Below the pieces are notes generated by a model. It searched no databases. It worked only from the letters and a program-made list of their open reading frames with translations, and was not told where the DNA came from. Positions 3,733-40,358 of a stretch of DNA of 64,000 nt are shown piece after piece. Every line of letters starts with the position of its first letter. Position 1 is the first letter of the stretch. Source of the stretch: Paludibacteraceae bacterium (GTDB lineage Bacteria > Bacteroidota > Bacteroidia > Bacteroidales > Paludibacteraceae). The stretch spans positions 1-64,000 of the forward strand of contig JAEERP010000002.1 of the NCBI GenBank assembly GCA_016285885.1. Reading direction: 5' to 3'. Position numbers and translations under genes: made by a program.

Positions 3733-6700
3733 ATGACTACAAAAAATCGAGTATCGAAAGCAATCGTCCTGATTGTATCGATGTTGTTTGGCTGGATATT
3801 AGAGGCTTTCCCTGCGACGGTCTCGATTTCCAATTTTAACGACATGCAAAATGCGCTTGATAGATGTTCGAATGGTGACACTCTCTCGTTGTCGAGTGAT
3901 ATCACGTTATCTTCGTCCATTAGTTTTGGAAAATCGGTGACCGTTTTGGGTAATGGGCACATGATCACTAGAGCGAGCGCAAGTAATCGTATTAATTTTC
4001 AGGAGAATGTCAATGTGTCTGATTTGGTGTTCAATGCCAATCACACTTCATCGTCGACAGTTTCGTTCCTTCTTGTCTCTCGGGAAGGCAAGGTGACAAT
4101 GGACGATAAGACAATTGTTCGGGGCAGTGACAACGGACCTGTAATTATCGTGGAAGGCACAATGGTGGGCGGTGTTGTCACGGGCAATACAGTCACGGGT
4201 GCCTCAAGCACGCAATATCCTAGTGTGGTTAGGGTGACTGCGAATGGTACGATTATCAACTCGTTGGTTTATGGCAATACAGCTGCTGGAAATGCCAACA
4301 ATTATGCATATATTGTGCGCATCGATGGTGGTAAGATAGTCAATTGTACAATCGCAGGTAACACCTTGAGTGGCACTGACGGGCGTAGGACGACGTCATA
4401 TGCGTATGCGTTGGGCTCTATGTCTGCCTCAAGTTTGGTCTGCAACTCGTTTGTATGCATGAATATACACTCGGACAGAAGAATTGGAGATGTGAATATC
4501 GAGTTTGACGAGTATTTTTCCGGGAATAACCTTAAAAAATCTTACAATGGGAATACGAATCCCGGTTTTGTGAATGCATCTCAAAATGATTATTCTCTTC
4601 AAAAAACCTCTACTTATCTGAATAAAGGAGATGACACCTATAATTCAGAGGCGAAGGATTTGGCAGGCAATGACCGTATTTCGGGTACTAGTATAGACTA
4701 TGGTGCATACGAGTATCAGGAGTGCGCCACGATAAAGGCAAGTAAATCTGCCGGTATCATATATGGTGAGAGAATTGTTCTGGAAGTGGACAATGTGAGC
4801 TCATCGTTTAATAATATGGCCATTTCTTATCAATGGCAAAGTAGTAGGGATGGAAGTGAGTGGAGCAACATCGGAAAGGATGCGAATTCCAATCGTTATG
4901 TGATTGAGTCTGTCTCCAAGGAGATCCCTTATTATCGTTTGCATATTGTGAGGAAAACCAACACCTCCGAGGTGCTTTGCACATCCAACGTGTTGCAACT
5001 CCAATTCGCTGCTCCATATGTGAAATTCGTCGCTTCTGGATATGACAGGGTGGTGACCCATTATGCTTTTGAGGCTATATATGGTTCCACATTCACTTTC
5101 GGTTTGGAGCGCGTTAATGACGCTCGTATCACAGCGTTCTCTTTGACCCGCAAGTTGTTACAACGATCTGGTGAGGCGGATGTGACATACTCTGCAAGCG
5201 AAGTGAATGATTACAAGCTTAGCCTTTTGGTTGACGAAGCATATGAGTTCAACCTCTCATATTCTTATCAGATTGGATCCGGTAATCCAGTTAGTGTGGA
5301 TACTTCGTTCATCCTTCGTCCGATTTATAAGTGTACAGGAAAGAAGAACCAGTTGATTTGGCATGATGATTTCGGAACGTTTAATCCGTCGAATCGAACA
5401 TATACCTATATGGTTCCCGCAACGGATACGTCTGTTGCAGGATCGTCGACCATTTCACAATATAGGGAAAGAAACACTACAAGGAATGTGGCATATTACA
5501 CTTCCGGTTCAACTGCTTATTTGGGTGTCCCGGATTTCAACAATGCGGTAGTGGGTCATAATTATTTTAGTACAGGTTCTGGTGGTAGCCTGAGAAGTTG
5601 GGCTACGAATGACGGATACTATTCCATTGTTCCTAATTCCGGGCATTCGTGGAGAGGCCAAGACCAATTCGGCACGCAGAATGACCATACGACGGGCAAT
5701 GGCACCGGCGGTATGTTGGTGGTGAACTGTAGGGAAAACTCTAAAAACACGAGAATATATCAGCGTGATTTCAGTGTGGAGTGTGACTCCTCATTGGTGA
5801 TTTTCTCCTCCTATATCGCAAACCTCAACATGTGGGATAAGGCGACATGGACGAATAACCTTACGCTGATCAATGCGAATGTCCGCCTTGACATCTATGA
5901 GGTGAACGGGTCGACTGAAAAATTGTTACAGAGTGCTTATTCAGGTGAGATGTTGAGTCGTCTGCATGACTACGACAGCGATCCGAATGTGGACACTTAT
6001 TGGTCTAACCTTTCCGCTAAGTTCTTGGCGGACGCAGGTAAAACCTATCGTGTGGTCTTGGTGAACAACAGTAATGGTGGTGCTGGTAACGATATGATGT
6101 TCGATGACATCACCATCACGGCTTGTTGTCCGGATATGGCCATCTCCGACAATCCTTCGTTCGTGAACGAGAAACAGAATGTGGAGGTCTGCGGTACTGA
6201 TTCTTCAGACTTCACCATCTATGCGATCATGAAGGATGGTACGGTGGCGGATGATTATTTCATCTCTCCGTACTATTACCTCTATCAGTATCGTGAGAAG
6301 GGTGATACGATTTGGAAAAACTTCATTGGTGGCTCAGATCCATATCTCGAGCATTTCAGCTACAAAGTTGATTTGACGTCCTTCCCTTCAGGAGCGGAGT
6401 GCCGTGCGATCTTGGCGAGGTCTAAGACCCGTATCCAACAGATCGTAAATCATTACAACGCATCATACAACGACCCTACGATCACGGACGAGGAGAATCG
6501 TTATCCTCCGGTAGAGTGTAAGGAGGGTGTCTATGGTGTGGCTTACGGCTTCTCCATAAGCTATTACCCTGACTTGGGTGTCATCTCCGCGGACAAAATC
6601 AAGGAGGCTTGCCCTAATGAGGACGTGAAGTTCGAGTATGATCCGGGTGCTGTTTGGACGGAAAGAAACTGGTACGATGCGGACTATGCTCTGTTGAACG

Positions 6701-9700
6701 CAGGCAACACCATCACAGTGAGGAAGTCAACCAAGGAGATCGATGTTTATCACTATGTGATCGCAGGTGAAGGGGGTGTTTGCCCTGACACCATCACGTT
6801 CGAGGCGCATATGAACCGTGACCTTGCCTTCGGGGATGTGGACGATATCTATGCGGATGCGGATGCGAATTGCAAGGCGGAGATTTCTTTGTATGGCAAA
6901 CAACCTGGATATATCTTCTGCGCGACGGATGTAGACCATGTGGATTATTACTATAGTGTTAACAACACGGGCGCATGGACGAAACTCGTGGCAGATTCCA
7001 AGGCGGTTGTTTCCGATGGCGATGAGATCACATGGAAGGCGGTGCTCTTCTTGGAGGGGTCCACTCAGCCTTTGGATTCCGTACTCAAAAACCAACCTGT
7101 TCATGTTGCGGATAAGACCGCACCTTCAATCGTTCGTTGTGACGATATCGAGCACATGTATGGGCTTCCTTCTGCCAATAAGGTCTCGGGTGCTGTGTCG
7201 TTCGTGGTTGCACCGTCCGATATACAGTCCGCTTCCGAGGACAATTGCACGGCATCTGCCGATTTGAAGGTGTTGTGGAATGCAGGTTATGGAACATCCT
7301 TCGGTGAGTTCGGCTCGGATTATGCGATTGATTTGAACGCTTATACGAACCCATTCTCGGAATATGCTTGGAAAGTGGAGGATGAGGCTGGCCTTGTGAG
7401 CGCACCTTGCATTGTGAAATATGAAATCAAGAAAGACACGACCGATGAGCGAGGTGATCCTTATGCGGTGATTCGTGATACTACGGTTTGTGCTGGTAGT
7501 TTCCCATTGTCATGGTATGGCCGCACATTCAACCAAGATGGTGATACGGCTCATGTCGGATATGCCCTTTTGAAAGTCTTCGCAGACTCTTCTTATTTCC
7601 GTACGATTACGGAAACGGCTTGTGGTTCATTCCAATTCAATGGTAAGGAATATAAATACTCAGGCATATACAAGGATACGATTCAGAACACGACGGGTTG
7701 CGATAGTATCTTCACTTTGAACCTCACTATCAATGAGGTTGGTGAAACGACCATATCTGCTACGGCATGTGACTCGTATGAGTGGAATGGTGTGACATAT
7801 GCTACTTCTGGTGTCTATAGACAGACTTTGAAGTCGATGACAGGTTGCGACTCTGTCGTCACCTTGAATTTGACCGTCGGATATTCTTCTTATGATACGA
7901 CGGATGTCTCTGTCGCTAATTCATATTTCTGGCCAGTTAATGGGGTGACATACACAACCTCTGGACAATATGTGAGCGATTTGAAGAGCAAGGATGGTTG
8001 TGATTCCATCTCTGTCCTGAATCTCACCATTTACAAACCTTCTTATGGTTATGTGGATTTGCCTTTGTGTAGAAGCCAACTCCCTTACAAATATCGACCA
8101 GGTTTCTCACACATGGGAGATACTGCTGCCATATCGATTGTTTCGGATACCTCTATCGCCTTCTCAAGGTACCAAATGGGTGATTCAATCGTCGTGTTTG
8201 ATGTGACCATCTACGAGGAGAGCGCTGTTACAGAAACTAGATCCATCTGTAGAAATGAGTTCCCTTATGTATTTGATTCACGTAATAAGTTGATCGTATA
8301 TACTCCACAGAGCGATACGACGTTCGTCATTGAGAACAGTGTGGGTTGCGATAGCGTCATTACTTTGAAGTTGAATGTGTTGGAGCCTTCTGACACAACA
8401 ATCATTAAGAGAACAGCGTGTGACTCATTCTCTATTTGGGGATATACCTTCACGAAGGATACCACTTTCACGGAGATGTTCGTGAACGCTGCCGGATGTG
8501 ATTCAGCGGTTACCTTGAACTTGGTTGTCAACCATGCCATCCATGTGGTGGAGACTTTGGAACCAGCGTGTGACGCTGTCCTCTGGCATGGTAATTTGTA
8601 TTATGAGGATAACAACGTCGCTACCTTCGATACGTTTTCCACGGTGACGGGTTGCGACTCCATCGTCACATTGAATGTGAAGGTGAACCATTCGGTTCGC
8701 ACGAAGGAGACTCTCAGCTTGTGTGAGAGCGACTTCACAGATGATGGCACGAAGAAGACCTACACGACCAGCCAAGGCATTGTATTGGTCGCTGGAGGAT
8801 GGTCTGTAAAGGATACCGTATATGCGACTCATACGGTGAATGGATGTGATTCTATTGTGGACATCCGCGTGAATTACGCACCTAACAAGTTCATATACGA
8901 CACTATCTTCGCCAAGGATTCGGTGGAGTGGAGGAATGGTATCGTTTACAATGTCAGCGGTGAGTATACGGACACTGTGGGACATGGTCCTTTCGTGGCC
9001 GCCAGCGGTTGTGATAGCGCAACATTCTTGTCGCTTCACATTATCCCGACGAAGCGTGTGGATGTGGATGAGGTTGCATGCGGAACCTACTCATACCAAT
9101 ATGGAAATGTGCGTTATGTGACGAACCAAGATACAACTTGGACGTTCGCTTACACATATGATACCCTTGTGGCTGCCGGAAGTGCCGGCTCTCCTCTTGA
9201 TGTTGCCGTGAAGGGAGATTCTATCGTGACTCTCCATGTGAAGATAAATAACAAGGTGGTTGTTTATCTTGACCCTGCTACATCCTGTGGTACTACTACA
9301 TGGAATGGCATCCTTGTGGATCGGACCGCAACCTATGAGTATACGACACCATCTTTGTTGACGGGTTGCGATTCCACGACAATCATTAGATATTTTGTTT
9401 ACGATGTGAAGCGTGATACGACGCAAGAGATTGTGTGCGAAAACTTCACTTGGGACGTGACGGGTGTGGTGTATACTCAGTCTGGCTTCTATTCAGACAC
9501 ATTACGCTATATTAATTCTTCTAGATGTGATTCCGCGATCCGTGTCTTGGATTTGACAGTGTTGTCGAAGTCGGAGAATGTGATTAAGGCGAGCCTTTCA
9601 GCATCTGATTATGCGAACTATCGTGTGGAGGGATTCCACCCGGATGTGATGGATACGCTCTATGCGGATGGCTCAATTAAAGAGAATCCACTCTATGACA

Positions 9701-12700
9701 GAGGCAGAGGAAATTATCCTAGCATCATTTCCCGTGTGAAGAACGCTAGCGGTTGTGATTCTGTCTTGGTGTTCGATATCACCTTGTTGGCTTCTTCCGA
9801 TGAGACGGTTGTCAACAGCGCTATCTGTAAGGAGGATTTGCCTTACAATGTGACTATCGGAACAACGGATTACAAGTTGTATGGCGACACGACAATCCTG
9901 TTGAAGAACAGCGCTGGAGGTGACAGTACAGTGGTGGTTGACCTTACCATCAACACTGCTTCTAAACCAGTGACGGATTATGTCGACGTTTGCGGAATGA
10001 GTTATGAGTGGAACGGTATCGTATATACGGAGAATGCGTTGGATACCTTCTATGCTAAGAATAGTTTAGGCTGCGACTCTATCGTATATCTGGATCTTAA
10101 ACTCCACAAACCTACGTATTATGTGGAGGAGATCGCCGCTTGTGACTCCTTCGAGTGGAATGGAGTGACTTACAACTCATCTCGTTTGGCGGATCAACGA
10201 ATGGCAGATTACACCTTTACGAATGCGATGGCGTTGAAAGAGGGTACCGCCACGCAATCCAGCTTGGATCCTTCATTGATGCTCCCATATTACTTCGAGC
10301 AAGGGAAGAACAACGCTGGTTGTGATTCTGTCTTGATTCTTTCTTTGAATATCACAAAGACGGTTTATGGTGACACCATACCGCAGACGGCGTGCGATTC
10401 GTTCTTGTGGTTGGTTAATGATGAGCATCCTGATGGTATTTATAGAACGTCAGGTATATACTCCGCGAGAAGACTCTCTTCTCTTTCCAACTGTGACTCT
10501 GTTGCCGCGATCGATTTGACGATCCTTCACTCTACAACGATTGACACTACGTTGCTTGTGTGTGCGAACCAACCTATCAAGTTGGGTGCGCTTGAGTTGA
10601 AGGGTGATACTACGATCTCTACCGTGAATGCGGCGGGTTGCGATTCCACTATCCATGTGAAGGTGGTGATCAACCCTGTTTACGATACTACATTTGTGGC
10701 TGCGACTTGCGACTCCGTCTATACTTGGAGAGGCAATGTCTACCGTCAGTCCGGTATTTATACAGATTCATTGAAGACCGCCTCTTGCGGTTGTGATTCG
10801 GTGGTTAGATTGGATCTCACGATGAATCAGTTGCCGATCGTCTCCATCGACACGACGGTGTGCGGACGCTTCTCATGGAATGGACGTGACTACATTGATG
10901 ATGCTGTTATCTCAGATACCTTCCAAACTTCTAAGGGTTGTGATTCTATCGTGAATGTGAACCTCACCGTGAAGAAGGCATCCATCAGTCAACCAGATGC
11001 GCTCGAACTTGCCGCGGGCGATGCTTGCAAGGCAGACCTTGAGTTGAACGCACATGTGCCAGCTTATCAATATTGCGATGATGCGGCTAAGGCTGACTAT
11101 TGGTTCAGTACTGACTCGATCTCTTGGACGCATGTGGATGACGCCGCTGCCGCTAGTGTGGCTAACGGAGACACAATCTACTGGAGAGTGGTTCTCTCCG
11201 ATGCGATCGGTAAGTTGGACAGCGTTACTGTTTCCCAAGTTGTCTCTGTGGTCGACAAAACGGCTCCTGCGTTCGTCGAGTCTTGTGAGTCTTGGGCGAG
11301 CGTATACAGCGTGTTCGATACCATTTCAGGAAATGTGACCTTCTCCCTTGTCGCAGACTCTATCCGTACGAGAATGTCCGATAATTGTACGGACGTGAAT
11401 GGATTAGAGGTGCAATGGAATGTGAACGGTACAGGATTCTCCGTCTTCTCGGGTGATACTACGTTTACATTGAACGCTTACAAGGGCGATTCCATCATGA
11501 TCTCTTGGAAGGTGGTCGATGAGGCTGGTAACGAAAGCGATATCTGTGACAAGACATACGAAATCGACCGTGATAAGGATGGTGGAGATGATCATTTCTA
11601 CTCTATCGTTCGTGACACGCTCATTTGTGCTGGCGAATTGCCATTCTCATGGCATGGCGCCACCTTCGCTAAGGATGGTGATACGGCTCACGTCGGAAGC
11701 ACTTTGTTGAGGGTGCATGTTGACAAATCATTCTTGTTGACAGATACGGTTGTCGCTTGTGGCAGCTACGTATGGCGTGATGGTCAGACCTACACTGCTA
11801 GCAACACGACCGCGGTCTACAGCTTGAATAACGGAGCTGCGTGTGACTCTGTCTACACGTTGAACCTGACCATCTTGGAAACTTCTAAGATGGATACTAC
11901 GTTGAACATTTGCGCTTCTGAGTTGCCTATTACATTGGGCGCTTCTACCATTACGTCTGATACGACCTTCACGCTGACAAATGCGGCAGGTTGCGATTCG
12001 ATCGTGACGGTAAGATTGAATATTGTTCCTATCAAGCGTGATACGGTTCATCAGATCGCTTGTGGCTCGTTCTTGTGGAACAATGTGACGTATACAACGA
12101 GTGGTTTCTACTCCGATACGTTGAAGTCTGTCGCAGGTTGTGATTCCATCTCATCTTTGGATTTGATCGTCTCACCGATCTTGCGTGATACTATTTATGA
12201 TTCATTCAGCTGTGCTTCATATACATGGCGCGGCAAGACTTATACCGAGGCGGGCGCATATTCCGACACGTTGGCTTCTTCGTTCAATTGTGACTCAATT
12301 GTGACTTTGGTCTTGAAGTACGAGCCTACTGTCGTCAATGTGGCGATGAACACCTGCGAAGGATTGCCTGGCAGCTTTAGAGGCCATGAGATCCTTGGTG
12401 ATACGCTCCTGATTTTGCCGGATGAGAATGGTTGTCCTATACACTACACGATTACGTTGCATGTGACGCCAGCCTTCTCGGGTGATACTGCTGACGTATT
12501 CGCTTGCTACTCTTACAATTGGAATGGCAGGGTGCTCACAGCGTCAGGTGTTTATAAGGATACGTTATCATCTTCCATCTCCGGATGTGATTCTGTGGCG
12601 ATCTTGAACTTGACCATCTCGAACGAACCAGTTTATGGAGACACGGCGGTTATTGCAGCATGTGAGTCTTACGAGTGGTTGGGTCAGACCCTCACGAAGA

Positions 12701-13848
12701 GCGGACTTTACTACGATACGATTCCGACGGCTGCAGGCTGTGATTCTGTCATCGCCATCAAACTGACGATCGCTCATCCGGACACTGTTACGGTTGACAC
12801 TACCATTGCAGTGGGTCAGTCGATAGACTTCTATGGCTTGAAAGTCAAGGATGCCGCTTACGGTATCTACTCTTACGATACTACGGTGGTTACGTCTGCC
12901 GGTTGTGATGTTCTCTTCCACGTCTTTGTCTCTGCGACGGGCAGACCAATTGTTGTGGATAGTGTTGAGATATCAGGTGGAGAGATTGGTCATGGCGGAG
13001 AAGATGATATCCCTGATCTTGTGACGGTGATAGACACCGCTTCAATTTCGGATACCACAATCCTTGGCCCTGTTGTTACTGACAGTGTGAAGGTTACGGT
13101 TAACGGTGGACTCTGGTTCTGTCAAGGAGATGTGGCGAACGTTAAGTTCTTCACTTCCGGTGCGCCTGAGACCTACGCTGTGACATTCGATTCGTTGACC
13201 AGCGCCGCAGGATTTAAGAACACCAACGGTGATTTGGATGCGGACGGAATCGTTCGGTTCGATATCCCTGATAACATAAAACCAGGCATGTATCGCGCGA
13301 ATGTTCAACTCTTCGGAGAGGGCATGTCAAGCCAGATCATCAACGTTAAGTTCTATGTAAGCATCGGCTCAAGCATCATCAAGAGGAAGTGGAACGATGT
13401 GCTTGTATGCAACAACTCTGATAGTTTGTTCATCGAATATCAATGGTACCACAACAACCAGAAGATGGAAGGTGAGACTGCACAGTATGTCTCAGTCCTT
13501 TCTGGAGTGGAAGGCAATTACTCATTGGATGTCGTCACCATCTATGGTGATACGTTCCATGTCTGCGGTAAGGACTTCGAAATGTTGTTGCCAGAGTTCT
13601 CTATCACCGCATATCCTGTTCCGGCTGTAGCCAACAAGGATTTCACGATTCAAGTGCAGGGTCTCAACCAAGAGCAATTGCGTAAGGCTAAGTTGGTGAT
13701 CTACTCTGTGGATGGTGTGGTGAAATATAAGGATCTTGATGGTATAAATGAGAAGAATGTGCTCTCATTGCCAATCGGTGACTATATCGCTGTTGTGACT
13801 GTCGAGAATGGCCTTAGCGCTAATTGCAAGATATTGGTTAAACCATAA
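3733..13848 (+). CDS. Giant T9SS-exported repeat protein (3371 residues)
   Basis: A signal peptide occupies residues 1 to ~28. Residues ~30-330 are a right-handed beta-helix-like region ending in a DYGAYEY motif, as in 'choice-of-anchor Q' domains. An Ig-like segment follows to ~430, and a jelly-roll-like region lies at ~535-800 (starts near HDDFGTF, ends near MMFDDITITACC). From ~1240 to ~3080 there are 27-28 units of roughly 50-65 residues with the pattern 'ACDSxxWNGxxYxxSGxYxDTL...GCDSxxxLNLT'. A ~250-residue supermodule (start ~1045) recurs near residue 2430. The last ~80 residues are a type A sorting domain with a basic end. The product should be a very large surface fibre or adhesin, with paired cysteines possibly stapling the repeats. 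The OmpA-like barrel gene begins 48 bases downstream. No catalytic motif is visible; adhesion is inferred from architecture. Confidence 0.85.
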   Translation: MTTKNRVSKAIVLIVSMLFGWILEAFPATVSISNFNDMQNALDRCSNGDTLSLSSDITLSSSISFGKSVTVLGNGHMITRASASNRINFQENVNVSDLVFNANHTSSSTVSFLLVSREGKVTMDDKTIVRGSDNGPVIIVEGTMVGGVVTGNTVTGASSTQYPSVVRVTANGTIINSLVYGNTAAGNANNYAYIVRIDGGKIVNCTIAGNTLSGTDGRRTTSYAYALGSMSASSLVCNSFVCMNIHSDRRIGDVNIEFDEYFSGNNLKKSYNGNTNPGFVNASQNDYSLQKTSTYLNKGDDTYNSEAKDLAGNDRISGTSIDYGAYEYQECATIKASKSAGIIYGERIVLEVDNVSSSFNNMAISYQWQSSRDGSEWSNIGKDANSNRYVIESVSKEIPYYRLHIVRKTNTSEVLCTSNVLQLQFAAPYVKFVASGYDRVVTHYAFEAIYGSTFTFGLERVNDARITAFSLTRKLLQRSGEADVTYSASEVNDYKLSLLVDEAYEFNLSYSYQIGSGNPVSVDTSFILRPIYKCTGKKNQLIWHDDFGTFNPSNRTYTYMVPATDTSVAGSSTISQYRERNTTRNVAYYTSGSTAYLGVPDFNNAVVGHNYFSTGSGGSLRSWATNDGYYSIVPNSGHSWRGQDQFGTQNDHTTGNGTGGMLVVNCRENSKNTRIYQRDFSVECDSSLVIFSSYIANLNMWDKATWTNNLTLINANVRLDIYEVNGSTEKLLQSAYSGEMLSRLHDYDSDPNVDTYWSNLSAKFLADAGKTYRVVLVNNSNGGAGNDMMFDDITITACCPDMAISDNPSFVNEKQNVEVCGTDSSDFTIYAIMKDGTVADDYFISPYYYLYQYREKGDTIWKNFIGGSDPYLEHFSYKVDLTSFPSGAECRAILARSKTRIQQIVNHYNASYNDPTITDEENRYPPVECKEGVYGVAYGFSISYYPDLGVISADKIKEACPNEDVKFEYDPGAVWTERNWYDADYALLNAGNTITVRKSTKEIDVYHYVIAGEGGVCPDTITFEAHMNRDLAFGDVDDIYADADANCKAEISLYGKQPGYIFCATDVDHVDYYYSVNNTGAWTKLVADSKAVVSDGDEITWKAVLFLEGSTQPLDSVLKNQPVHVADKTAPSIVRCDDIEHMYGLPSANKVSGAVSFVVAPSDIQSASEDNCTASADLKVLWNAGYGTSFGEFGSDYAIDLNAYTNPFSEYAWKVEDEAGLVSAPCIVKYEIKKDTTDERGDPYAVIRDTTVCAGSFPLSWYGRTFNQDGDTAHVGYALLKVFADSSYFRTITETACGSFQFNGKEYKYSGIYKDTIQNTTGCDSIFTLNLTINEVGETTISATACDSYEWNGVTYATSGVYRQTLKSMTGCDSVVTLNLTVGYSSYDTTDVSVANSYFWPVNGVTYTTSGQYVSDLKSKDGCDSISVLNLTIYKPSYGYVDLPLCRSQLPYKYRPGFSHMGDTAAISIVSDTSIAFSRYQMGDSIVVFDVTIYEESAVTETRSICRNEFPYVFDSRNKLIVYTPQSDTTFVIENSVGCDSVITLKLNVLEPSDTTIIKRTACDSFSIWGYTFTKDTTFTEMFVNAAGCDSAVTLNLVVNHAIHVVETLEPACDAVLWHGNLYYEDNNVATFDTFSTVTGCDSIVTLNVKVNHSVRTKETLSLCESDFTDDGTKKTYTTSQGIVLVAGGWSVKDTVYATHTVNGCDSIVDIRVNYAPNKFIYDTIFAKDSVEWRNGIVYNVSGEYTDTVGHGPFVAASGCDSATFLSLHIIPTKRVDVDEVACGTYSYQYGNVRYVTNQDTTWTFAYTYDTLVAAGSAGSPLDVAVKGDSIVTLHVKINNKVVVYLDPATSCGTTTWNGILVDRTATYEYTTPSLLTGCDSTTIIRYFVYDVKRDTTQEIVCENFTWDVTGVVYTQSGFYSDTLRYINSSRCDSAIRVLDLTVLSKSENVIKASLSASDYANYRVEGFHPDVMDTLYADGSIKENPLYDRGRGNYPSIISRVKNASGCDSVLVFDITLLASSDETVVNSAICKEDLPYNVTIGTTDYKLYGDTTILLKNSAGGDSTVVVDLTINTASKPVTDYVDVCGMSYEWNGIVYTENALDTFYAKNSLGCDSIVYLDLKLHKPTYYVEEIAACDSFEWNGVTYNSSRLADQRMADYTFTNAMALKEGTATQSSLDPSLMLPYYFEQGKNNAGCDSVLILSLNITKTVYGDTIPQTACDSFLWLVNDEHPDGIYRTSGIYSARRLSSLSNCDSVAAIDLTILHSTTIDTTLLVCANQPIKLGALELKGDTTISTVNAAGCDSTIHVKVVINPVYDTTFVAATCDSVYTWRGNVYRQSGIYTDSLKTASCGCDSVVRLDLTMNQLPIVSIDTTVCGRFSWNGRDYIDDAVISDTFQTSKGCDSIVNVNLTVKKASISQPDALELAAGDACKADLELNAHVPAYQYCDDAAKADYWFSTDSISWTHVDDAAAASVANGDTIYWRVVLSDAIGKLDSVTVSQVVSVVDKTAPAFVESCESWASVYSVFDTISGNVTFSLVADSIRTRMSDNCTDVNGLEVQWNVNGTGFSVFSGDTTFTLNAYKGDSIMISWKVVDEAGNESDICDKTYEIDRDKDGGDDHFYSIVRDTLICAGELPFSWHGATFAKDGDTAHVGSTLLRVHVDKSFLLTDTVVACGSYVWRDGQTYTASNTTAVYSLNNGAACDSVYTLNLTILETSKMDTTLNICASELPITLGASTITSDTTFTLTNAAGCDSIVTVRLNIVPIKRDTVHQIACGSFLWNNVTYTTSGFYSDTLKSVAGCDSISSLDLIVSPILRDTIYDSFSCASYTWRGKTYTEAGAYSDTLASSFNCDSIVTLVLKYEPTVVNVAMNTCEGLPGSFRGHEILGDTLLILPDENGCPIHYTITLHVTPAFSGDTADVFACYSYNWNGRVLTASGVYKDTLSSSISGCDSVAILNLTISNEPVYGDTAVIAACESYEWLGQTLTKSGLYYDTIPTAAGCDSVIAIKLTIAHPDTVTVDTTIAVGQSIDFYGLKVKDAAYGIYSYDTTVVTSAGCDVLFHVFVSATGRPIVVDSVEISGGEIGHGGEDDIPDLVTVIDTASISDTTILGPVVTDSVKVTVNGGLWFCQGDVANVKFFTSGAPETYAVTFDSLTSAAGFKNTNGDLDADGIVRFDIPDNIKPGMYRANVQLFGEGMSSQIINVKFYVSIGSSIIKRKWNDVLVCNNSDSLFIEYQWYHNNQKMEGETAQYVSVLSGVEGNYSLDVVTIYGDTFHVCGKDFEMLLPEFSITAYPVPAVANKDFTIQVQGLNQEQLRKAKLVIYSVDGVVKYKDLDGINEKNVLSLPIGDYIAVVTVENGLSANCKILVKP
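6868..7626 (+). repeat. Supermodule copy 1 inside the giant protein gene
   Basis: This ~250-residue block runs from the CKAEISLYG segment through 'ADKTAPS' and 'WKVEDEAG' to the first CGSF repeat unit. It matches the block at 11023-11763 in motif order (CKA, Y..VxDGDxIxWxxVL, DKTAP, DNCT, WKVxDEAG, LPxSWxGxxFxxDGDTAHVG). Each copy leads into a run of CDS repeats, so the protein appears to have grown by duplication of a large composite unit. Confidence 0.75.
11023..11763 (+). repeat. Supermodule copy 2 inside the giant protein gene
   Basis: This block is the diverged second copy of 6868-7626, about 4.15 kb downstream. It has the same motif order, including VVDKTAP, SDNCTD, WKVVDEAG and FAKDGDTAHVG. 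The DTAHVG stretch is conserved at both protein and near-DNA level, which suggests either selection or local gene conversion. Confidence 0.75.
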
Positions 13849-13896
13849 TCGATGGTGATAGTTGCTTATTAACGTAGATTATTAAAAGAAAAAGAT

Positions 13897-15255
13897 ATGA
13901 AAAGAATAGGTTTGATTCTGGTGGGGCTTTGCCTCTCGTCCCTGGTTTTCGGACAGAGTGAACTTGTTACATTGAGTGCGGGCGGTGGTCTGCACTCCTT
14001 GAAACATGAGCCTAAACTGCCTACCAAGAATGAATTAGGTAAGTGCTTTGGAGAGGGTAAGCTCTCTGCGGGTGCGACGTTCAGCGCACGGTATATGCAT
14101 TTCTTCCGTGACAGGAACTGGGGTATCGGAACGGGTGCCGATGTCTCCTATTATACTGCCACTTCATGCTTGGATGGCGTGGAGACTACGAGTGAGTACG
14201 ACACGTACAACAAGGAGAAGTTCGATTGCAGTTTCGCCTACATGGGATGGGAAGAACGCCAGCGTGTTTTGGCGTTAGAGATTCCGTTGGGACTCTACTT
14301 CCGTACGGATTTCACCTACAAATTGGGCATGGTGGCCGGTGTGGGTGCGAAATTCATTATGCCGCTCTACTCTCGCTTCGAGATCCAGGAGGGTTCTTAT
14401 GAGATTTCCGGCTATTATCCAGGCGATAATGTGACCTTCTCCCAATTGCCTCATCATGGTTTCTACGACAATTCTCCTCGCTATAAGGATGGCATCGACA
14501 CGAAACCTGTGTTGGGCGTCTATGCGGAGTATGGTTTGAACATCAAGTTCACTGAGAAAGTATGGGGTTATGCCGGTGTCTATTTCAACTATGGCATCAC
14601 GGATATGGCCAAGGACCACGTCTCTGACTTGGGCGCCATCCGCGACGATTTCCAAAACGGCTACAAGGGAGTCTTGAACTCTTCCGCTGTGGATAAGGCT
14701 AATTTCTTGGCCGCTGGTGTGAAGATCGGTATCACTTTGCCGTTCGGCAAGAAGCCTGAGCTTCCTCTCGACTCTACTTTGTTGGAGGAGCCTCTTCCAA
14801 TGGTTCCTATGGTTGAGCCTGCCGATTCTTCCGCAATCTTGGATAGCACGAAGGCGGCTAATATCCAAATCGATCCTGAGGACTTTAAGCGTGCTAAGGA
14901 TGCTTTGGGTGATATCAATAACACGGTTCACTTCAAGCTCGGTTCCGCTCGCCTCAACAAGTCTAAGACGTTGAACAACGGTATCCAGGTTGTCGCTCAG
15001 TTCATGAAGAAGTATCCTAACGTTAAATTGGAGGTCGACGGACACACTTGTACGTTGGGTACGGAGGAGCGTAACGATAAATTGGGTGTTGCTCGTGCGA
15101 ACAGTTTGATCGTTCCGTTGATCAAGGCGGGTTGTCCGAAGGAGAGCATCGTGACGACTTCCAAGTCTTACCATGAGCCTGTCGCTTCCAACGTTTCGGA
15201 GACGGGTCGTGAGTTGAACAGACGTGCGGTGGTTAAGTTCATTATCAACAAATAA
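13897..15255 (+). CDS. Outer-membrane barrel protein with C-terminal OmpA domain
   Basis: The 452-residue protein has a signal peptide (MKRIGLILVGLCLSSLVFGQ), an N-terminal barrel of ~270 residues, a linker rich in Pro, Glu and Ser (~285-330) and a C-terminal OmpA-like domain (~340-452). The OmpA part has VDGHTCTLGTEERND, a VARAN helix and RELNRRAV. In typical OmpA domains the residue after GHT is an Asp that binds diaminopimelate; here it is Cys, so peptidoglycan binding may be altered. The barrel is a clear paralogue of the protein at 34831-35682 (shared LPHHG, GVTDIA/GITDMA and YHGILNS/YKGVLNS segments). It follows the giant gene by 48 bases, so the two are likely one operon, and a terminator closes it. 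A role in anchoring or exporting the giant protein is inferred. Confidence 0.8.
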   Translation: MKRIGLILVGLCLSSLVFGQSELVTLSAGGGLHSLKHEPKLPTKNELGKCFGEGKLSAGATFSARYMHFFRDRNWGIGTGADVSYYTATSCLDGVETTSEYDTYNKEKFDCSFAYMGWEERQRVLALEIPLGLYFRTDFTYKLGMVAGVGAKFIMPLYSRFEIQEGSYEISGYYPGDNVTFSQLPHHGFYDNSPRYKDGIDTKPVLGVYAEYGLNIKFTEKVWGYAGVYFNYGITDMAKDHVSDLGAIRDDFQNGYKGVLNSSAVDKANFLAAGVKIGITLPFGKKPELPLDSTLLEEPLPMVPMVEPADSSAILDSTKAANIQIDPEDFKRAKDALGDINNTVHFKLGSARLNKSKTLNNGIQVVAQFMKKYPNVKLEVDGHTCTLGTEERNDKLGVARANSLIVPLIKAGCPKESIVTTSKSYHEPVASNVSETGRELNRRAVVKFIINK

Positions 15256-29409: not shown

Positions 29410-29420
29410 TCGGGTAGGTT

Positions 29421-30278: not shown

Positions 30279-30306
30279 AAGCTTCTTAACTTTATAAAAT
30301 TTATAT

Positions 30307-31101: not shown

Positions 31102-31111
31102 TCTTATAGCA

Positions 31112-31156
31112 TGAGGTGGCCTTCCATTCGTGGAGGTGCCCCCTCATTCTTTTGTT
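31112..31156 (+). terminator. Probable terminator after nagB
   Basis: TGAGG with CCTCA encloses further paired bases (GGC/GCC and TCCA/TGGA) and is followed by TTCTTTTGTTTT. It lies just past the nagB stop codon. Confidence 0.55.
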
Positions 31157-31222
31157 TTAAAGGTATGTGGGGAAACCCGTCATGGAATCCCCTTGTTTTC
31201 TCATCATCAAATTTATACTAGA

Positions 31223-32965: not shown

Positions 32966-32977
32966 TTACTATGGGCT

Positions 32978-33022
32978 GGTCTCGGGTGGTATGTCGCCCG
33001 AGACCCCCTTTCATTATTTTTT
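32978..33022 (+). terminator. Terminator after the phosphohexomutase gene
   Basis: A perfect 9-bp stem (GGTCTCGGG / CCCGAGACC) around a 10-base loop is followed, after CCCTTTCATTA, by six T. The T-run is slightly displaced, so strength is uncertain. Confidence 0.65.
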
Positions 33023-33037
33023 AACGAGGACACTATT

Positions 33038-33406
33038 ATGCAAGAAGATAAAAGGGACGATTCCCAAAATGCGACCAGATGTTGGATTATGGCTATTGTC
33101 ATCTTCTTGTCCGTCCTTATATTGGGAGGAATTTATTACTTTCTGTCCCGACCTGTCACATTCCCTCACGACGTGGTCGCTGTGGTGAAGGTGAAGTGTA
33201 AAAAACAGACTACCTGTCTCTCTAGGGTTAACCTAATCTCTGAACCGCATGATATACCGTTCCTTGAGTGTGAATTGGTGGACACGAAGGAACTCGTTAG
33301 CGTAGAGGTCTCCCCGTATGTCTCCCCGAATTTGTCGGAGGGCGATACCTGCGTATTGCGCTGTATCCATGGTGATTATGTCTATAAAAACAGAGGCTCA
33401 AGGTGA
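33038..33406 (+). CDS. Small single-pass membrane protein of unknown function
   Basis: The 122-residue product has a charged N-terminus, one membrane helix at ~residues 17-37 (WIMAIVIFLSVLILGGIYYF) and a beta-rich, cysteine-containing outer part of ~85 residues. No family is recognised. It lies between a terminator and the ACT-MBL gene and stops 7 bases before that gene's ATG, so the two probably form an operon. The topology (short inside tail, folded periplasmic part) is inferred from charge distribution. Confidence 0.6.
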   Translation: MQEDKRDDSQNATRCWIMAIVIFLSVLILGGIYYFLSRPVTFPHDVVAVVKVKCKKQTTCLSRVNLISEPHDIPFLECELVDTKELVSVEVSPYVSPNLSEGDTCVLRCIHGDYVYKNRGSR

Positions 33407-33413
33407 TGTTCCC

Positions 33414-34811: not shown

Positions 34812-34830
34812 TATCAGCAAGGCCCCCCGC

Positions 34831-35682
34831 TTACCATTTGCCGGAAGCACCTCTGTCTGATCCTTTCGACGGGAAGAGGGAAACGCCTAGTTTCACACCT
34901 ACGCTCATCGGCACGCATTTGTCGGTCAAGTCACTGTTGAGGATACCATGGTAATTGTTACCTTCCATCGATTCGTGGTGCTCCGCGATGTCCGTCACAC
35001 CCTTTGAGAAGTAGAATCCGCAGTGGAACCAGGTGCTTTCGTTGATCCTAAAACAAAACATCATGTCCGCGAAGATGGAGGTACAGATCGTATTGGTGGT
35101 GATGTCACCCCTCTTTTGCTGCTTATCCACGTAAAGTCCGTGGTGGGGTAGGTCACGCACCTCCGTGTCCATATTGCCTCCGAAATAGGCCCTGGTCTCA
35201 ATCGTGCCGTCCGTCATTTGGTAGCTCTTGACGACTGGTATGCCCATCTTCACACCCGCACCGAGCACGAGGTTTACTGTCCTGCCCATCTTTACTTTCC
35301 CGTAGATTCCCACAGGTATTTCCGCCATGAACAGTGTCTGTTTCTCCCTCCAATCGTCGAAGATGGTGCGGAGCGTGTAAGGACCGCCCACGACCGGGGT
35401 GTTGATCTCCGACTCGAATGTCTCGTCGATCTCTGTCGAAGCGTTATAGTAATCGACACCCACGCCTGCGCCTATGCCTATGATCTCCTTGAAAAAGTAT
35501 TGGTATTGGCATAGGAACATCACTCCACCACCGGGCGAGGTGGAACCCACTTTCATCTCGTATTGGATAGGGTGCAAGCCTCCTCCCAAGGAGATGTTGA
35601 TCTGCGAATTCTCTGCGTACAAACCGCCCGTCCAACCGAATAGTGCGGCTATCAACACGATGGTTGCTATTGTCTTGTTCAT
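34831..35682 (-). CDS. Outer-membrane barrel protein, partner of the second giant gene
   Basis: The 283-residue protein has a signal peptide (MNKTIATIVLIAALFGWTGG, cleavage near YAENS) and a barrel-like body. It is a paralogue of the barrel half of the protein at 13897-15255: shared GGGLHPIQYEM/GGGLHSLKHEP, LPHHGLY/LPHHGFY, GVTDIAEHH/GITDMAKDH and a VGVKLGVSLF/AGVKIGITLP end. It lacks the C-terminal OmpA domain and so has no obvious peptidoglycan anchor. It starts 8 bases after the stop of the giant gene at 35691-40358, so the two are one operon. The repeated pairing of this family with giant CDS-repeat proteins is the main clue to function, probably surface display of the giant partner. This is inference. 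Confidence 0.75.
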   Translation of the reverse strand: MNKTIATIVLIAALFGWTGGLYAENSQINISLGGGLHPIQYEMKVGSTSPGGGVMFLCQYQYFFKEIIGIGAGVGVDYYNASTEIDETFESEINTPVVGGPYTLRTIFDDWREKQTLFMAEIPVGIYGKVKMGRTVNLVLGAGVKMGIPVVKSYQMTDGTIETRAYFGGNMDTEVRDLPHHGLYVDKQQKRGDITTNTICTSIFADMMFCFRINESTWFHCGFYFSKGVTDIAEHHESMEGNNYHGILNSDLTDKCVPMSVGVKLGVSLFPSKGSDRGASGKW

Positions 35683-35690
35683 TTCCTTTG

Positions 35691-38600
35691 TTATTTAACC
35701 AATATCTTACAATTGATGTTTTTGCCGTCATTCACGGTGAGCACCACCACGTATTCCCCTGCAGGGAGCGTCAGCATGGTCTCTTTGCTTACCGGCTTCT
35801 TCATCCATTCCACCGCACCGTTCGTATGGTATATCACCAATCGGGCATTCTCCAACTGCGAGTTGTCGAGTCCGTTGATGGTCACGGTGACCTTCTCATA
35901 CCTTCGGGCAGGGTTCGGCGTGGCGGTGACTGATACTTCCATGGTCTCTCGAGTGAAGTATTTCGGCTCGATGAAATATTTAGCGCCTTGCCTTTCGGTG
36001 ACCTGAACCATGTATTCTCCGGCTAGGCCATTGAGGTCGCAGTAATACTGGAAGGTCGCGCCCTCTATCTTCTTCCTGTTCTTATACCATTGATAGGAGG
36101 AGAATTGTTTTCCCTCGTTCAGGCAGATGAGAAGGTCGTTCCATCGTTTCTGGTAGAAACTCTCCGCCCCATTGTCTTCCCTCGCCACATGGAAGGTAAA
36201 GTCCTGATTGGCTGATGTTCCGAACCTGTCATGGACGCTCAGTGTGGTGGTGTATTCCCCTGGCGATAGGTTGCCTGGAATGGTAAGGTACGCCACACCC
36301 GCCTCCTTGAGCGTATCGGAGCAGATAGGAACACCTCCCCTGGTGAAGTCGTAGCGGGAGACTTCGCCTTTTGATAGGCTATATGACACCTCGATCGTCT
36401 CGTTCGGTTTCCCTAGCAATAGGGAATCCGCGATGGTGAGATCACCTATTCGAGGCGTATATTGCATGGTGAGCTGGTAGCGGATGATGCTGTCGCACCC
36501 CTGCACCGTCTGTAGCGTATCGTTCCATTGCGCATCCTCCGTGATGGCTTTGCCCTGCCAGAAGAAGGTGTCGAGGGCGGTGACGGACGAGTCTGTTATT
36601 GTTCCATGGTGGATTGTAAGGTGGTAGCGGATGATGCTATCGCACCCTTGCGTGGTCTGTAACGTTTCGTTCCAAGCAGTATCCCCTAAGAAGGTTATGC
36701 CTTGATAGGTGAATGATCCGCAGACGGACAGAAGCGTGTCTGTGACAAACGTTTTCCCAATGTTGATGGCATAGTGGATGATACTGTCGCAGCCGTGGAT
36801 GGTGGAGAAGGTGTCGCTCTTCAGACAACTCTCCCTCAATATCTCCCCATGCCAAGGGAACGAGTCGCAAGCGTAGATGGCGGAATCCTTTACGACGCTG
36901 TGATGGATGGTGAACTGATAGCAGTACAAGCTCGTACAACCTTTATCCAAATACATGGTGTCGCACAAGAAAGTGTCTTGGGTAACCCGTATCCCTTTCC
37001 ATACGATGGAGTCGCAGGCTACGCTCTCCTCCACAGCGATAGGGCCATTCAGGAAGGATACTCTGCAACGGGTAATACTATCGCAGCCATGGATGGACTG
37101 TAGGGTGTCATACAATATAGCGTCATCATAGACGGTTATGCCGCGCCAAGTATACGGATCGCAGGAATTGACAAACGTGTCCCTTATCGCTACACGTTGG
37201 ATAGCATAGTGGTAGAGAACGATGCTGTCGCAACCCTGAGCGGAAGGGTATACTTCCTCCATCTCAAAATATTCGATCGATTCCTCTCCATTCTCAGACA
37301 ATTCGCAGGTGGTGATGAAGGTGTCCCTGACCGATTCATGTCCTATGATGACGTTGTAATGGATAACCAAAGTGTCGCCTTGCTCATTGGTCAGTGTATC
37401 GTACAGTTCCGTGTTTTCTTCTATGACGATGTTATTCCATGGGAGAATCTCACATGCATAGATGGTGGAATCCATCCATGTCTTGTGATGGATGTTGAGG
37501 TGGTAACGGACGATACTGTCACACCCTTGCCCGGCAAGCAGTGTGTCGTTCCATTCCATGCTCTCCTTGATGAACTTACCGTTCAGAAGGAAGGAGTCGC
37601 AGGCGGAGATGACGCTATCCCGCACCATCTTGTCCCCTATGGTGAGGTGGTAATGGATGATACTGTCGCAGCCATGGATAGAGTGCAGACTATCGTCCCA
37701 TGCGGTGCTCTCCTTGATGGTGGTGTTGCCCCACACGAGGGAGTCGCAGGCGAACAGCTGGCTATCCCTTTCCGTCCGTTGATGGATTGTGAGGTGATAG
37801 CGGATGATGCTGTCACATCCGGAGATGGAGGCGAAAGTGTCGTCCCACATCTTGTTCTCTCTGAGGATCAGGCCTTTCCATGGGAAGGAGTCGCAAGCGG
37901 AGATGACGCTGTCCCGCAGGATGGATTTGCTGAGGGTGAGGTGGTATTGTATGATGCTGTCACAACCGAAGATGGTTGGGAGCGTGTCGTTCCATGAGGA
38001 GCTTTCCTTGATGGTCACACCCTTCCAAAGGAAAGAGTCGCAGGCGAGTAGTTGGCTATCCCTTTTTGTCTGTTGATGGATGGTGAGGTGGTAGCGTATG
38101 ATGCTGTCACACCCGGAGATAGAGACGGAGGTGTCGTCCCACACCTTGTCCTCCCTGAAGGTCAGGTCCTTCCATGGGAAGGAGTCGCAGGCTGAGATGA
38201 CGCTGTCCCGCAGGATGGATTTGCTGAGGGTGAGGTGGTATTGTATGATGCTATCGCAACCGAAGACGGAGGCGAGTGTGTCGTTCCATGAGGTGCTTTC
38301 CTTGATGGCCACACCCTTCCATAGGAAGGAATCACAGGCGGTGACGGCTGAATCGATGAGCTCTTTATGATGAATCTTAATCGTATGGCGGAGAATCTTT
38401 CCGCATCCCTCTCCCGTCGTCAAGGTGTCACTCCAAGTGGTATCTTGCAGGTAAACGATGCCTCCGATCAACACCCTTTCACAACCTTCAAGTAACGTGT
38501 TCGACACTTTTTTCTCCCCGATGATGAGGTGGTGGAGTACGATGCTGTCGCAACCGAAGATGGTTTGGAGCGTGTCTGTGCATACGGTGCTTTCTGTGTA

Positions 38601-40358
38601 TGTCTTTCCCCTCCATGTGATGGAATCGCAAGAGGTGATTGTGTCGTTCGAGGATGCACCATAGTGGATGAATACCTTATAGTGGATGATGGAGTCGTTG
38701 CCCGCCTCATGGTGAGTGGTGTCGGTCCATTCCGTGCTTTTCATGATGTTACGTCCGTTTATCGAGTAGGAGTAGCAGGAGTGTATGGTCGTGTCGCACA
38801 GAGCGAGGGAGTCGTATGCGGCGATATAGGTGTAAATGCCGCTGGTTGTCAGTGCCTTTAGAGGCGGGTCCCATCCCTTGAACTTGTAAGTGAAACTATC
38901 GTTGTCCGCTTTTTTAGGCGTGATGCCCTTGAACTGGGGGAGAGTGCCGCACGGGATCGTATCCTGCATGAGCACTAAACTATCGGCATTCATGAAGATG
39001 GCGACAGGGGAGGATATAGTGTTGAAGTTAGGAGGCACAGATGATGCCCCCCTTGTGTCATAGGTCGAGCCACAAGGGAAGATGAACGTTCCCGCTTCGG
39101 ACACATCCTTCATCCAGTTGAATGTATAGACGTTGGCGTCCGGTGCCAAAGTCATGCATCCTACCTGTATGAGAGAGAGGTTTTCACATCCGAGGAACAT
39201 GTTATTGTAACACTCTAGCGCAAGTTTTTCGGCAGGAAGTTCGGGTGCTATCCTCAGCGACTTGCACTCTCGGAACATGCCGAAGTAGCATCGCGAGGAG
39301 AGGTCGGTGGCCGGCAATTCAGGCGCCTTGGCGAGTTGGGTGCATCCCTGGAACATCTCACGGTAGCAGGCGCTATCCAACTCCATGGCGGGAAGCGCAG
39401 GAGCCTCAATGAGGCTTGTGCAGTTGGAGAACATGACGTAGCAACACTCCACATCCATTTGTGTCGCTGGCAGTTCCGGAGTTTGAGCGAGACTTGTACA
39501 GTTGGAGAACATGCCACAGTAGCATCTGTACTTCAGCTCTGTGGCAGGTAGTTCTGGAGCTATCGTCAGGGATGCGCACTTATAGAACATGTTGGAGTAG
39601 CATCGTTCAGCCAAAACCGTACTCGGCAGACTCGGAGCCCGGACGATGGAGGTCTGCTCGAACATGGCCAAGTAACAGTCTGTCGCCAATGTGGTGGCGG
39701 GCAGCTCCGGGGCCTGGACGAGGCTGGTGCAGTTAGAGAACATATTAGAGTAGCATCGTTGCTTCATTGTTCGGGACGGTAGTGCCGGCGCTTCCGTGAG
39801 GTCGGCACAGTTGGCGAACATGGCCTCGTAACAACCCTCTTCCAATTCAGTGGCGGGCAGTTCGGGCGCCTCCTTGAGCCCACACCCGGAAAACATCTCC
39901 TTGTAGCAATCCTCCGTTAATGTGGTGGCGGGCAGTTCCGGGGCTTGGACGAGCCCCTCACACTCCTTGAACAGGCCGTAGAAACACGTTTTGTAAGGGA
40001 TCTCCGTGGAGGTGCCTTCCCCATCGATCAGACTCATGACGCTTCCGCTGGCGGCCACTTTACCTGTCACGAAAAAGTTTGTGTAGTCGTTCATCGTATT
40101 GAATATGCCCGATGGATTATTTCCCCGGAAATATACCTTGTCATTGGTATGAGGCAATTCAACGGAGCCTGAGATGATCGGTGTCCAGGATGCGCCTTCG
40201 TCAAGAGAGTACTCCATATCTGGCACGTCTCTTCCCTTTTCCCTTATCCCAACGGACGAATTGTCTGTTATGGCAGTGAAGCATAGGTAATTCTGGGCCT
40301 TGACCATACCCATGGTAGAGAACAAAATAGCCCATAATAGGAGAATCTTAAATCGCAT
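35691..40358 (-). CDS. Large T9SS-exported protein with BspA-type LRRs and CDS repeats (1555 residues)
   Basis: A signal peptide ends near MVKAQN. Residues ~22-115 form an N-terminal domain (starts YLCFTA) shared with the protein at 40651-43182. Residues ~115-395 hold ten 26-residue leucine-rich units 'APELPATxLxxxCYxxMFxxC', with a cap to ~440. An InlB-like segment (~445-505, KFKGWDPPLK) follows. Residues ~524-1300 hold sixteen ~48-residue units 'ACDSFxWKGxxIxES...W.DTL...GCDSIIxYHLTI'. The C-terminus has a KRWNDLLICLN...YQWYKN module and a type A sorting domain, both matching the giant at 3733-13848. It should be a surface adhesin or fibre. The barrel gene begins 8 bases downstream. Confidence 0.85.
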   Translation of the reverse strand: MRFKILLLWAILFSTMGMVKAQNYLCFTAITDNSSVGIREKGRDVPDMEYSLDEGASWTPIISGSVELPHTNDKVYFRGNNPSGIFNTMNDYTNFFVTGKVAASGSVMSLIDGEGTSTEIPYKTCFYGLFKECEGLVQAPELPATTLTEDCYKEMFSGCGLKEAPELPATELEEGCYEAMFANCADLTEAPALPSRTMKQRCYSNMFSNCTSLVQAPELPATTLATDCYLAMFEQTSIVRAPSLPSTVLAERCYSNMFYKCASLTIAPELPATELKYRCYCGMFSNCTSLAQTPELPATQMDVECCYVMFSNCTSLIEAPALPAMELDSACYREMFQGCTQLAKAPELPATDLSSRCYFGMFRECKSLRIAPELPAEKLALECYNNMFLGCENLSLIQVGCMTLAPDANVYTFNWMKDVSEAGTFIFPCGSTYDTRGASSVPPNFNTISSPVAIFMNADSLVLMQDTIPCGTLPQFKGITPKKADNDSFTYKFKGWDPPLKALTTSGIYTYIAAYDSLALCDTTIHSCYSYSINGRNIMKSTEWTDTTHHEAGNDSIIHYKVFIHYGASSNDTITSCDSITWRGKTYTESTVCTDTLQTIFGCDSIVLHHLIIGEKKVSNTLLEGCERVLIGGIVYLQDTTWSDTLTTGEGCGKILRHTIKIHHKELIDSAVTACDSFLWKGVAIKESTSWNDTLASVFGCDSIIQYHLTLSKSILRDSVISACDSFPWKDLTFREDKVWDDTSVSISGCDSIIRYHLTIHQQTKRDSQLLACDSFLWKGVTIKESSSWNDTLPTIFGCDSIIQYHLTLSKSILRDSVISACDSFPWKGLILRENKMWDDTFASISGCDSIIRYHLTIHQRTERDSQLFACDSLVWGNTTIKESTAWDDSLHSIHGCDSIIHYHLTIGDKMVRDSVISACDSFLLNGKFIKESMEWNDTLLAGQGCDSIVRYHLNIHHKTWMDSTIYACEILPWNNIVIEENTELYDTLTNEQGDTLVIHYNVIIGHESVRDTFITTCELSENGEESIEYFEMEEVYPSAQGCDSIVLYHYAIQRVAIRDTFVNSCDPYTWRGITVYDDAILYDTLQSIHGCDSITRCRVSFLNGPIAVEESVACDSIVWKGIRVTQDTFLCDTMYLDKGCTSLYCYQFTIHHSVVKDSAIYACDSFPWHGEILRESCLKSDTFSTIHGCDSIIHYAINIGKTFVTDTLLSVCGSFTYQGITFLGDTAWNETLQTTQGCDSIIRYHLTIHHGTITDSSVTALDTFFWQGKAITEDAQWNDTLQTVQGCDSIIRYQLTMQYTPRIGDLTIADSLLLGKPNETIEVSYSLSKGEVSRYDFTRGGVPICSDTLKEAGVAYLTIPGNLSPGEYTTTLSVHDRFGTSANQDFTFHVAREDNGAESFYQKRWNDLLICLNEGKQFSSYQWYKNRKKIEGATFQYYCDLNGLAGEYMVQVTERQGAKYFIEPKYFTRETMEVSVTATPNPARRYEKVTVTINGLDNSQLENARLVIYHTNGAVEWMKKPVSKETMLTLPAGEYVVVLTVNDGKNINCKILVK
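36465..38790 (-). repeat. Array of sixteen ~144-bp CDS repeats
   Basis: The units encode ~48 residues each, with an ACDS start and a GCDS end; a few are degenerate (for example one lacks the first Cys pair). Spacing is very regular at 144 bp. Conservation varies, with the middle units most alike, which suggests recent unequal exchange. Confidence 0.8.
37764..38340 (-). repeat. Recent 288-bp tandem duplication within the CDS repeats
   Basis: Two neighbouring two-unit blocks are nearly identical at DNA level. The same stretch of about 70 bases occurs starting near 37911 and again near 38199, 288 bp apart, with only a few differences. This is the youngest event in the array. Confidence 0.75.

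Follow-up and report, generated by a model that had tools for sequence, protein, structure and literature searches.

Giant T9SS proteins with type A-like sorting domains are encoded beside predicted OmpA-fold barrels in a Paludibacteraceae genome

Background

In current descriptions of the type IX secretion system (T9SS), PorV serves as the general carrier for every substrate with a type A C-terminal sorting domain (CTD), and dedicated barrels belong to substrates of type B (PMC12618676, PMC12635249; likewise PMC10994853). PorV and the PorP-like carriers are reported to be 14-stranded barrels of the FadL family (PMC9143113). Here we describe a gene pair which departs from this scheme, consisting of a very large T9SS protein with a type A-like CTD (henceforth, giant) and a predicted eight-stranded OmpA-type barrel encoded directly beside it. 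Two such pairs are located in a stretch of 64,000 nucleotides (the window) from a Paludibacteraceae bacterium of the order Bacteroidales, comprising positions 1 to 64,000 of contig JAEERP010000002.1 (assembly GCA_016285885.1, forward strand). Arrangements of a substrate and its cognate barrel are known; new here are the class of the CTD, the fold of the barrel and the OmpA-like part that the barrel often carries in the same chain. Among the matches listed by open PubMed Central, which leaves subscription papers and preprints outside, no title or opening of an abstract reported giants of type A that have OmpA-fold barrels of their own.

The arrangement resembles that of type B adhesins and PorP/SprF proteins (SprB–SprF, PG1035–PorP–PorE), where a giant T9SS protein and an outer-membrane barrel are likewise encoded by adjacent genes and the barrel is sometimes coupled to a wall-binding protein of the OmpA type; PorP–PorE has been proposed to tie PG1035 to the wall (PMC9143113). 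In contrast to these systems, the present pairs combine a type A-like CTD and a specific Ig-like domain with a barrel that has a predicted eight-stranded OmpA fold and is not PorP/SprF by profile, and in many members the OmpA-like part is fused in one chain. In PorZ–PorQ, too, a barrel that is not PorV deals with a type A CTD: PorV-like barrels have been proposed to shield the CTD from cleavage, and PorQ may protect the type A CTD of PorZ (PMC10202324). However, PorZ and PorQ are part of a core attachment complex, whereas the present pairs concern giant accessory proteins, and their genome contains two PorV-family genes besides eight pairs. PorG, predicted to be eight-stranded and disulfide-linked to GldK/PorK, shares the strand number and, with five short barrels of the present family, a similar CxC motif in the C-terminal tail; it is, however, a core component of the T9SS, and the single PF19573 gene of the genome was not found by our barrel profile. 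The barrel fold and its fusion to a periplasmic OmpA domain are familiar from OmpA and OMP_b-brl proteins (PF00691, PF13568, PF13505), from which the present barrels differ by regularly adjoining a giant T9SS protein and by family-specific motifs.

Gene pairs in the window and its genome

A first-pass annotation of the window, made from the letters alone, had described two loci in which a giant exported protein is followed by a barrel gene. Order, coordinates (Table 1) and gaps, 48 bases between giant 1 and barrel 1 and 8 bases between giant 2 and barrel 2, were all found as described. The barrels had been called homologous, one with and one without an OmpA domain, and this was borne out by BLASTP (E 7e-37, 29% identity over 269 columns), with which the profile comparison agreed, and by a Pfam scan, which found PF00691 in barrel 1 and none in barrel 2. 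Recent duplication of the two loci, already considered unlikely in that annotation, was rejected on the basis of the 29% identity and of the presence of a relative of each locus in another genome of the same genus (G027). The alignment of the two giants extends from the repeats to the C-terminus (E 2e-68). Their GCDS copies compare with residue-shuffle means of 0.05 (giant 1) and 0.02 (giant 2); a stricter C-W-GCDS repeat pattern, matching once in giant 1 and not at all in giant 2, was dropped.

Searching the window's own genome with barrel 1 yielded 15 rows, namely eight family barrels and seven matches to the OmpA part only, one of which falls inside the barrel on contig C36. In all eight cases, a large open reading frame (ORF) on the same strand ends 8–50 bases upstream of the barrel gene, the encoded partners comprising 3371, 1555, 3266, 4111, 3945, 2674, 1883 and 1015 residues. 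On contig C44, three giants in a row (one cut by the contig end) precede one barrel, and on contig C2 an additional giant starts about 210 bases past the barrel. The contigs carrying these arrays of giants with similar tails around one barrel (L012, G000:C44:6000-24010, and G000:C2:29500-63320) end within repeats, so that the true number of giants is uncertain. On contig C36 (L014, G000:C36:79000-98900), both kinds of pairing stand side by side: a type B-like giant (3811 aa or more) lies together with a PorP/SprF gene and an OmpA gene directly upstream of a type A-like giant and its barrel-OmpA fusion.

Neighbours of the barrel genes across genomes

A barrel profile (A2) built from seven of the own barrels matched 41 of 61 genomes of the window's taxonomic family (E up to 1e-3), 28 of 197 genomes of the order (E up to 1e-8) and 10 of 296 genomes of a phylum sample, the own genome being included each time. 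The family scan gave 119 rows, of which 89 were examined (82 loci and seven own) and 30, mostly weak, were left out (the strongest being G057:C105, 4.6e-37); from the order scan, 34 of 36 new rows were examined. The 133 loci examined, eight of them own, were reduced to 127 by dropping L134, which has no barrel by the local profile, and five loci with less than 400 bases upstream (L060, L064, L067, L116 and L117).

Tabulation of the barrel neighbours had been set beforehand as a test of the pairing, and neither outcome that would have spoken against it, a barrel family mostly lacking giant neighbours or barrels not homologous by profile, was seen. A match to the tail profile described below lies directly upstream of the barrel at 33 of 33 loci with a barrel score of at least 200 bits, at 48 of 56 loci with 100–200 bits, at 15 of 18 with 60–100 bits and at 15 of 20 below 60 bits, the last group being counted apart as it may include other OMP_b-brl families. 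Four loci of the 100–200-bit group (L032, L033, L035 and L074) have a giant with a strong tail directly downstream. A giant T9SS partner was thus found at 85 of the 89 loci of at least 100 bits (81 upstream, four downstream; eight of the 89 own), a set which includes close relatives and hence is not independent; moreover, 20 of the counted loci were used to build the tail profile A7. The gap between the two genes has a median of 21 bases and ranges from -89 to 225 (102 pairs of at least 60 bits). A reversed order was seen at L141 and L142 (with L312 and L313), where weak CxC-tailed barrels directly precede giants, one of which contains 21 CDS motifs.

Related genes of the own genome served as controls. 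OMP_b-brl_2 gave 17 matches, five of which are family barrels; inspection of the upstream C-termini showed that none of the other 12 genes follows a type A protein (one has no upstream ORF of at least 50 residues). OmpA gave 15 matches, 11 of them outside the barrel family, and none of these 11 was found after a type A protein, two being not assessable and two following type B-like ends. Type A CTDs (PF18962, E up to 0.001) were matched 63 times, two of the matches being barrel partners; a family barrel was the next gene on the same strand for none of the 40 non-partner type A proteins read (of 61). In contigs C7, C4 and C24 (L207, L212 and L230), type A CTD proteins of 161–184 aa overlap by four bases with a following exported gene (532 aa or more, the sequence examined ending within it), possibly representing another two-gene unit.

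The C-terminal tail shared by the partners

The bodies of the partners vary, consisting of GCDS repeats, CxxL..APELPAT repeats, or neither. The first-pass annotation had named GCDS-ended repeats, a "QWY" module and a type A sorting domain as the marks of the giants. All three are present in both window giants; however, a simple motif count found no GCDS in four of the eight barrel-linked giants of the genome (contigs C2, C13, C36 and C42), and the repeats were rejected as the defining feature of the partners. What the partners have in common is the last approximately 190 residues, composed of an Ig-like domain (W/F-x-D-V ... QW-Y/F-K-N-G ... GL-x-G-x-Y) and the CTD.

A 190-residue tail profile, trained on 35 upstream ORFs of loci outside the window's taxonomic family (two of which, at L058 and L074, are not tails), scored the eight own partners at 80.6–129.0 bits, as compared to at most 40.0 bits for 40 ordinary type A proteins. 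Most of the 68 upstream ORFs from the window's taxonomic family exceeded 66 bits with the same profile, the exceptions being L043, L116, L118, L044 and L121 with scores of 54 to 6, and L033 and L041, which are not tails. The last 95 residues alone also separated the two groups, more narrowly but completely (score difference at least 8 for the eight partners, below 0 for the 40), with a profile whose training set included genomes of the same genus.

The curated type A model TIGR04183 (cut-off 23) matches giant 1 (Table 1), whereas giant 2 scores 20.2 as a whole protein and 26.1 with the tail alone; independently of A7, it matches 71 of 81 upstream tails (E up to 0.01). The type B model TIGR04131 is absent among the 11 families matched by the 81 tails at E up to 0.01. 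PF18962, at E up to 0.001, detects just two of the eight own partners and misses both window giants; these CTDs are therefore divergent. Against solved structures, the tail profile matched Ig-like proteins best (1.3e-7), followed by the type A CTDs of gingipain R2 (1e-4) and mirolase (7e-4), whereas RemZ was reached only at 0.07. AlphaFold models the giant 2 tail (mean pLDDT 84.6) as all-beta domains, the last of which is seven-stranded; type A CTDs are described as having seven strands (PMC12618676). Judged by these matches, the CTD of the partners is type A-like.

The barrel family

In AlphaFold's prediction for barrel 2 (mean pLDDT 75.6), the 12 strand segments given by DSSP were read as comprising eight long barrel strands, and the family barrel is predicted to be an eight-stranded barrel of the OmpA type. 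The list of similar folds for this model contains no PorV or PorP chain, an absence which proves nothing alone. That the barrels do not look like PorP had been suggested from the letters, and the profiles concur: at E up to 1, barrel 2 matched neither TIGR03519 nor PF11751 and barrel 1 gave no match to PF11751; TIGR03519 is absent among the best 25 of the 35 NCBIfam matches of barrel 1, down to E 0.002. A PorP/SprF protein of the same genome, as a positive control, gave 2.2e-33 with TIGR03519 and 4.6e-31 with PF11751. On these profiles and on the predicted strand number (8 versus 14), a PorP/SprF identity was rejected. Likewise, the PorV/PorQ model NF033709 did not match barrel 2 at E up to 1 and is absent among the same best 25 matches of barrel 1; in the own genome it detects two other genes of the PorV family and no family barrel. 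PF19573, which we take to be PorG, matched neither barrel at E up to 1 in the Pfam scan, and its one match in the genome is a different gene outside the barrel-profile matches.

PF00691 is present in four of the eight own barrels, namely barrel 1 and three others. About half of the family barrels are longer proteins, and an OmpA-like motif was counted in 42 of 57 long barrels by pattern. In Pal and OmpA, the residue at the GHT-x position is usually Asp, which together with an Arg binds peptidoglycan. By pattern count, this position is Cys in 22 and Asp in 16 of the 57 long barrels. A CxC motif in the C-terminal tail occurs in five of 49 short barrels of at least 60 bits, as compared to two of 268 non-barrel ORFs of at least 200 residues and none of the 57 long barrels. 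The five (L034, L036, L038, L104 and L126) include four closely similar ones, and CxC was rejected as a general feature of the family; the motif resembles that of SprF and PorG. The named relatives of barrel 2 number 17, six of them (78–92% identity) originating from rumen, omasum and similar assemblies labelled Paludibacteraceae or Bacteroidales.

Co-occurrence and paired divergence

In the phylum sample, the ten genomes with barrels and the ten whose tails reach E below 1e-40 are identical sets; six more have only weak tails (about 1e-15). Eight of the ten belong to one genus, at least three other sampled members of which (G275, G311 and G338) have neither part, and five of the ten (G456, G460, G472, G497 and G505) were not used in building the tail profile A7. 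In the order sample, each of the 16 genomes whose tails reach E below 1e-25 also has a barrel, and a tail at E up to 1e-14 was found in 22 of 28 barrel genomes; 11 genomes have only a tail, at E 2e-19 or weaker, and no barrel. In both scans the best 8 to 16 first-look candidates per genome were scored, and absence refers to these. Among the eight own pairs, barrel distances and tail distances are correlated (r 0.87; 15 of 40,320 permutations as high), and the nearest neighbour agrees between barrel and tail for 57 of 83 pairs. Since inheritance as a unit would give the same pattern, paired divergence supports the pairing and not physical contact.

Proposed function and alternatives

The first-pass annotation had proposed a two-part surface display system. 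We lean, with some reservation, towards a more specific version, in which the giant of each pair is an adhesin-like protein of the cell surface and the barrel is its dedicated anchor in the outer membrane. Because its CTD is type A-like, the giant would cross the outer membrane via the T9SS. The C-terminal unit of Ig-like QWY domain and CTD, a natural candidate for barrel binding, would then remain uncleaved, attached to the extracellular face of the eight-stranded barrel encoded with it. In most of the longer barrels, the OmpA-like periplasmic part could tie the giant to the wall through one small protein, so that the barrel-OmpA chain would stand in for the separate PorP and PorE of type B systems. 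The data show the pairing of the genes, the tail specific to the partners, the likeness of the CTD to type A and the predicted fold of the barrel; binding, retention of the CTD and anchoring are inferred.

The same gene order is also that of type B substrates and their carriers (PMC12618676), and the barrel might instead be a true dedicated carrier which takes the place of PorV in docking at the SprA/Sov gate, and which extracts and retains the giant as SprF does with SprB. The length of the specific unit, approximately 190 residues, is close to the more than 200 residues that type B signals are said to need, and it has been suggested that the type A CTD of PorZ, which is not cleaved, is handled by PorQ (both PMC10202324). 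However, an eight-stranded OmpA fold, as predicted, is unlike the 14-stranded FadL-family barrels reported for the PorV and PorP type, the CTD resembles type A, and the genome also has PorV; we regard this role as rather unlikely, and because the predicted barrel differs from FadL-type carriers, an anchor that takes over the giant after export is favoured over a substitute for PorV. The size of the partners (1015–4111 aa in the own genome) and the many short barrels without an OmpA domain would also suit a helper in folding, processing or protection of giant T9SS proteins that provides no lasting anchor. Such a helper is distinctly improbable in view of the OmpA-like motif in long barrels and the CxC tail of five short ones, both of which are known coupling modules. 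Least probable is mere co-transcription of envelope genes without physical partnership: the pairing is kept through many genera whichever gene comes first, the tail is specific to the partners, and the presence and absence of the two parts match from genome to genome.

Several observations weigh against the anchor model. Four of the 12 partner-type tails of the own genome are not directly upstream of a barrel and lie in arrays or at contig ends; in the stretch read from G111, four of six tails have no adjacent barrel, although orphan type B substrates are known as well, three of them sharing one carrier (PMC12618676). Four barrels of at least 100 bits (L040, L041, L099 and L101) are flanked by no recognised partner, upstream or downstream, in the stretches examined, and the type C model NF033708 also matches 24 of the 81 tails. 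The OmpA domain of barrel 1 carries Cys where other OmpA proteins have the Asp to which peptidoglycan binding is ascribed. The correlation of distances falls to r 0.65 (36 of 5,040 permutations) without a recently duplicated pair and is only 0.47 (26 of 720) for six pairs of G027, and linkage alone also yields paired divergence. Finally, the barrel, as modelled, is not of the FadL type, so that the geometry known for carriers does not apply to it. At L040 (positions 981-1376), a family barrel is preceded by an exported-looking ORF of 131 residues with a QWY Ig-like domain and no CTD.

A wider and more speculative idea, which we hold to be doubtful, is that the barrels form a third class of T9SS carriers or anchors, with an OmpA fold and acting on type A-like giants via the Ig-CTD double domain. 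What becomes of the giant would then depend on which of two periplasmic ends the barrel has: with an OmpA domain it would be held still on the wall, and with a CxC tail it would be linked through a disulfide to the PorK/GldK track and its movement, as SprF and PorG are.

Features of the window

The coordinates of both pairs are compiled in Table 1. Just before giant 1, a separate, ordinary type A CTD protein is encoded at positions 1791-3434.

Table 1 Features of the two giant-barrel loci (positions in the window)
Feature	Position	Strand	Remarks
Giant 1, exported T9SS type A protein	3733..13848	+	3371 aa; 19 GCDS
GCDS-ended repeats of about 50 residues, giant 1	7615..12912 (approximate limits)	+	residues about 1295-3060
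Ig-like "WND...YQWY" domain, giant 1	13375..13602 (approximate limits)	+	first half of partner-specific tail
Type A sorting domain (CTD), giant 1	13612..13842	+	residues 3294-3370; TIGR04183 23.8 bits
Barrel 1	13897..15255	+	452 aa; C-terminal OmpA domain
LPHHGFY motif, barrel 1	14446..14466	+	aligns with low-confidence outer loop of barrel 2 model
OmpA-family domain, barrel 1	14932..15222	+	residues 346-442; PF00691 E 3.1e-10; Cys in GHT-x motif
Barrel 2	34831..35682	-	283 aa; without OmpA domain; eight-stranded OmpA-fold model
Giant 2, exported T9SS type A protein	35691..40358	-	1555 aa; 12 GCDS; N-terminal CxxL..APELPAT repeats
Type A sorting domain, giant 2	35694..35921	-	seven strands in AlphaFold model
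Ig-like "WND...YQWY" domain, giant 2	35949..36161 (approximate limits)	-	
GCDS repeat region, giant 2	36459..38801 (approximate limits)	-	spacing mostly 49 residues

Conclusions

Pairing with a dedicated barrel is unexpected for type A export signals, and type A-like giants with barrels of their own would break the rule that type A substrates use PorV. The QWY-Ig and CTD tail adjoining an OmpA-fold barrel provides a signature for annotation, and the proposed anchoring would hint at how Bacteroidales and their relatives keep many of their very large surface proteins on the cell.
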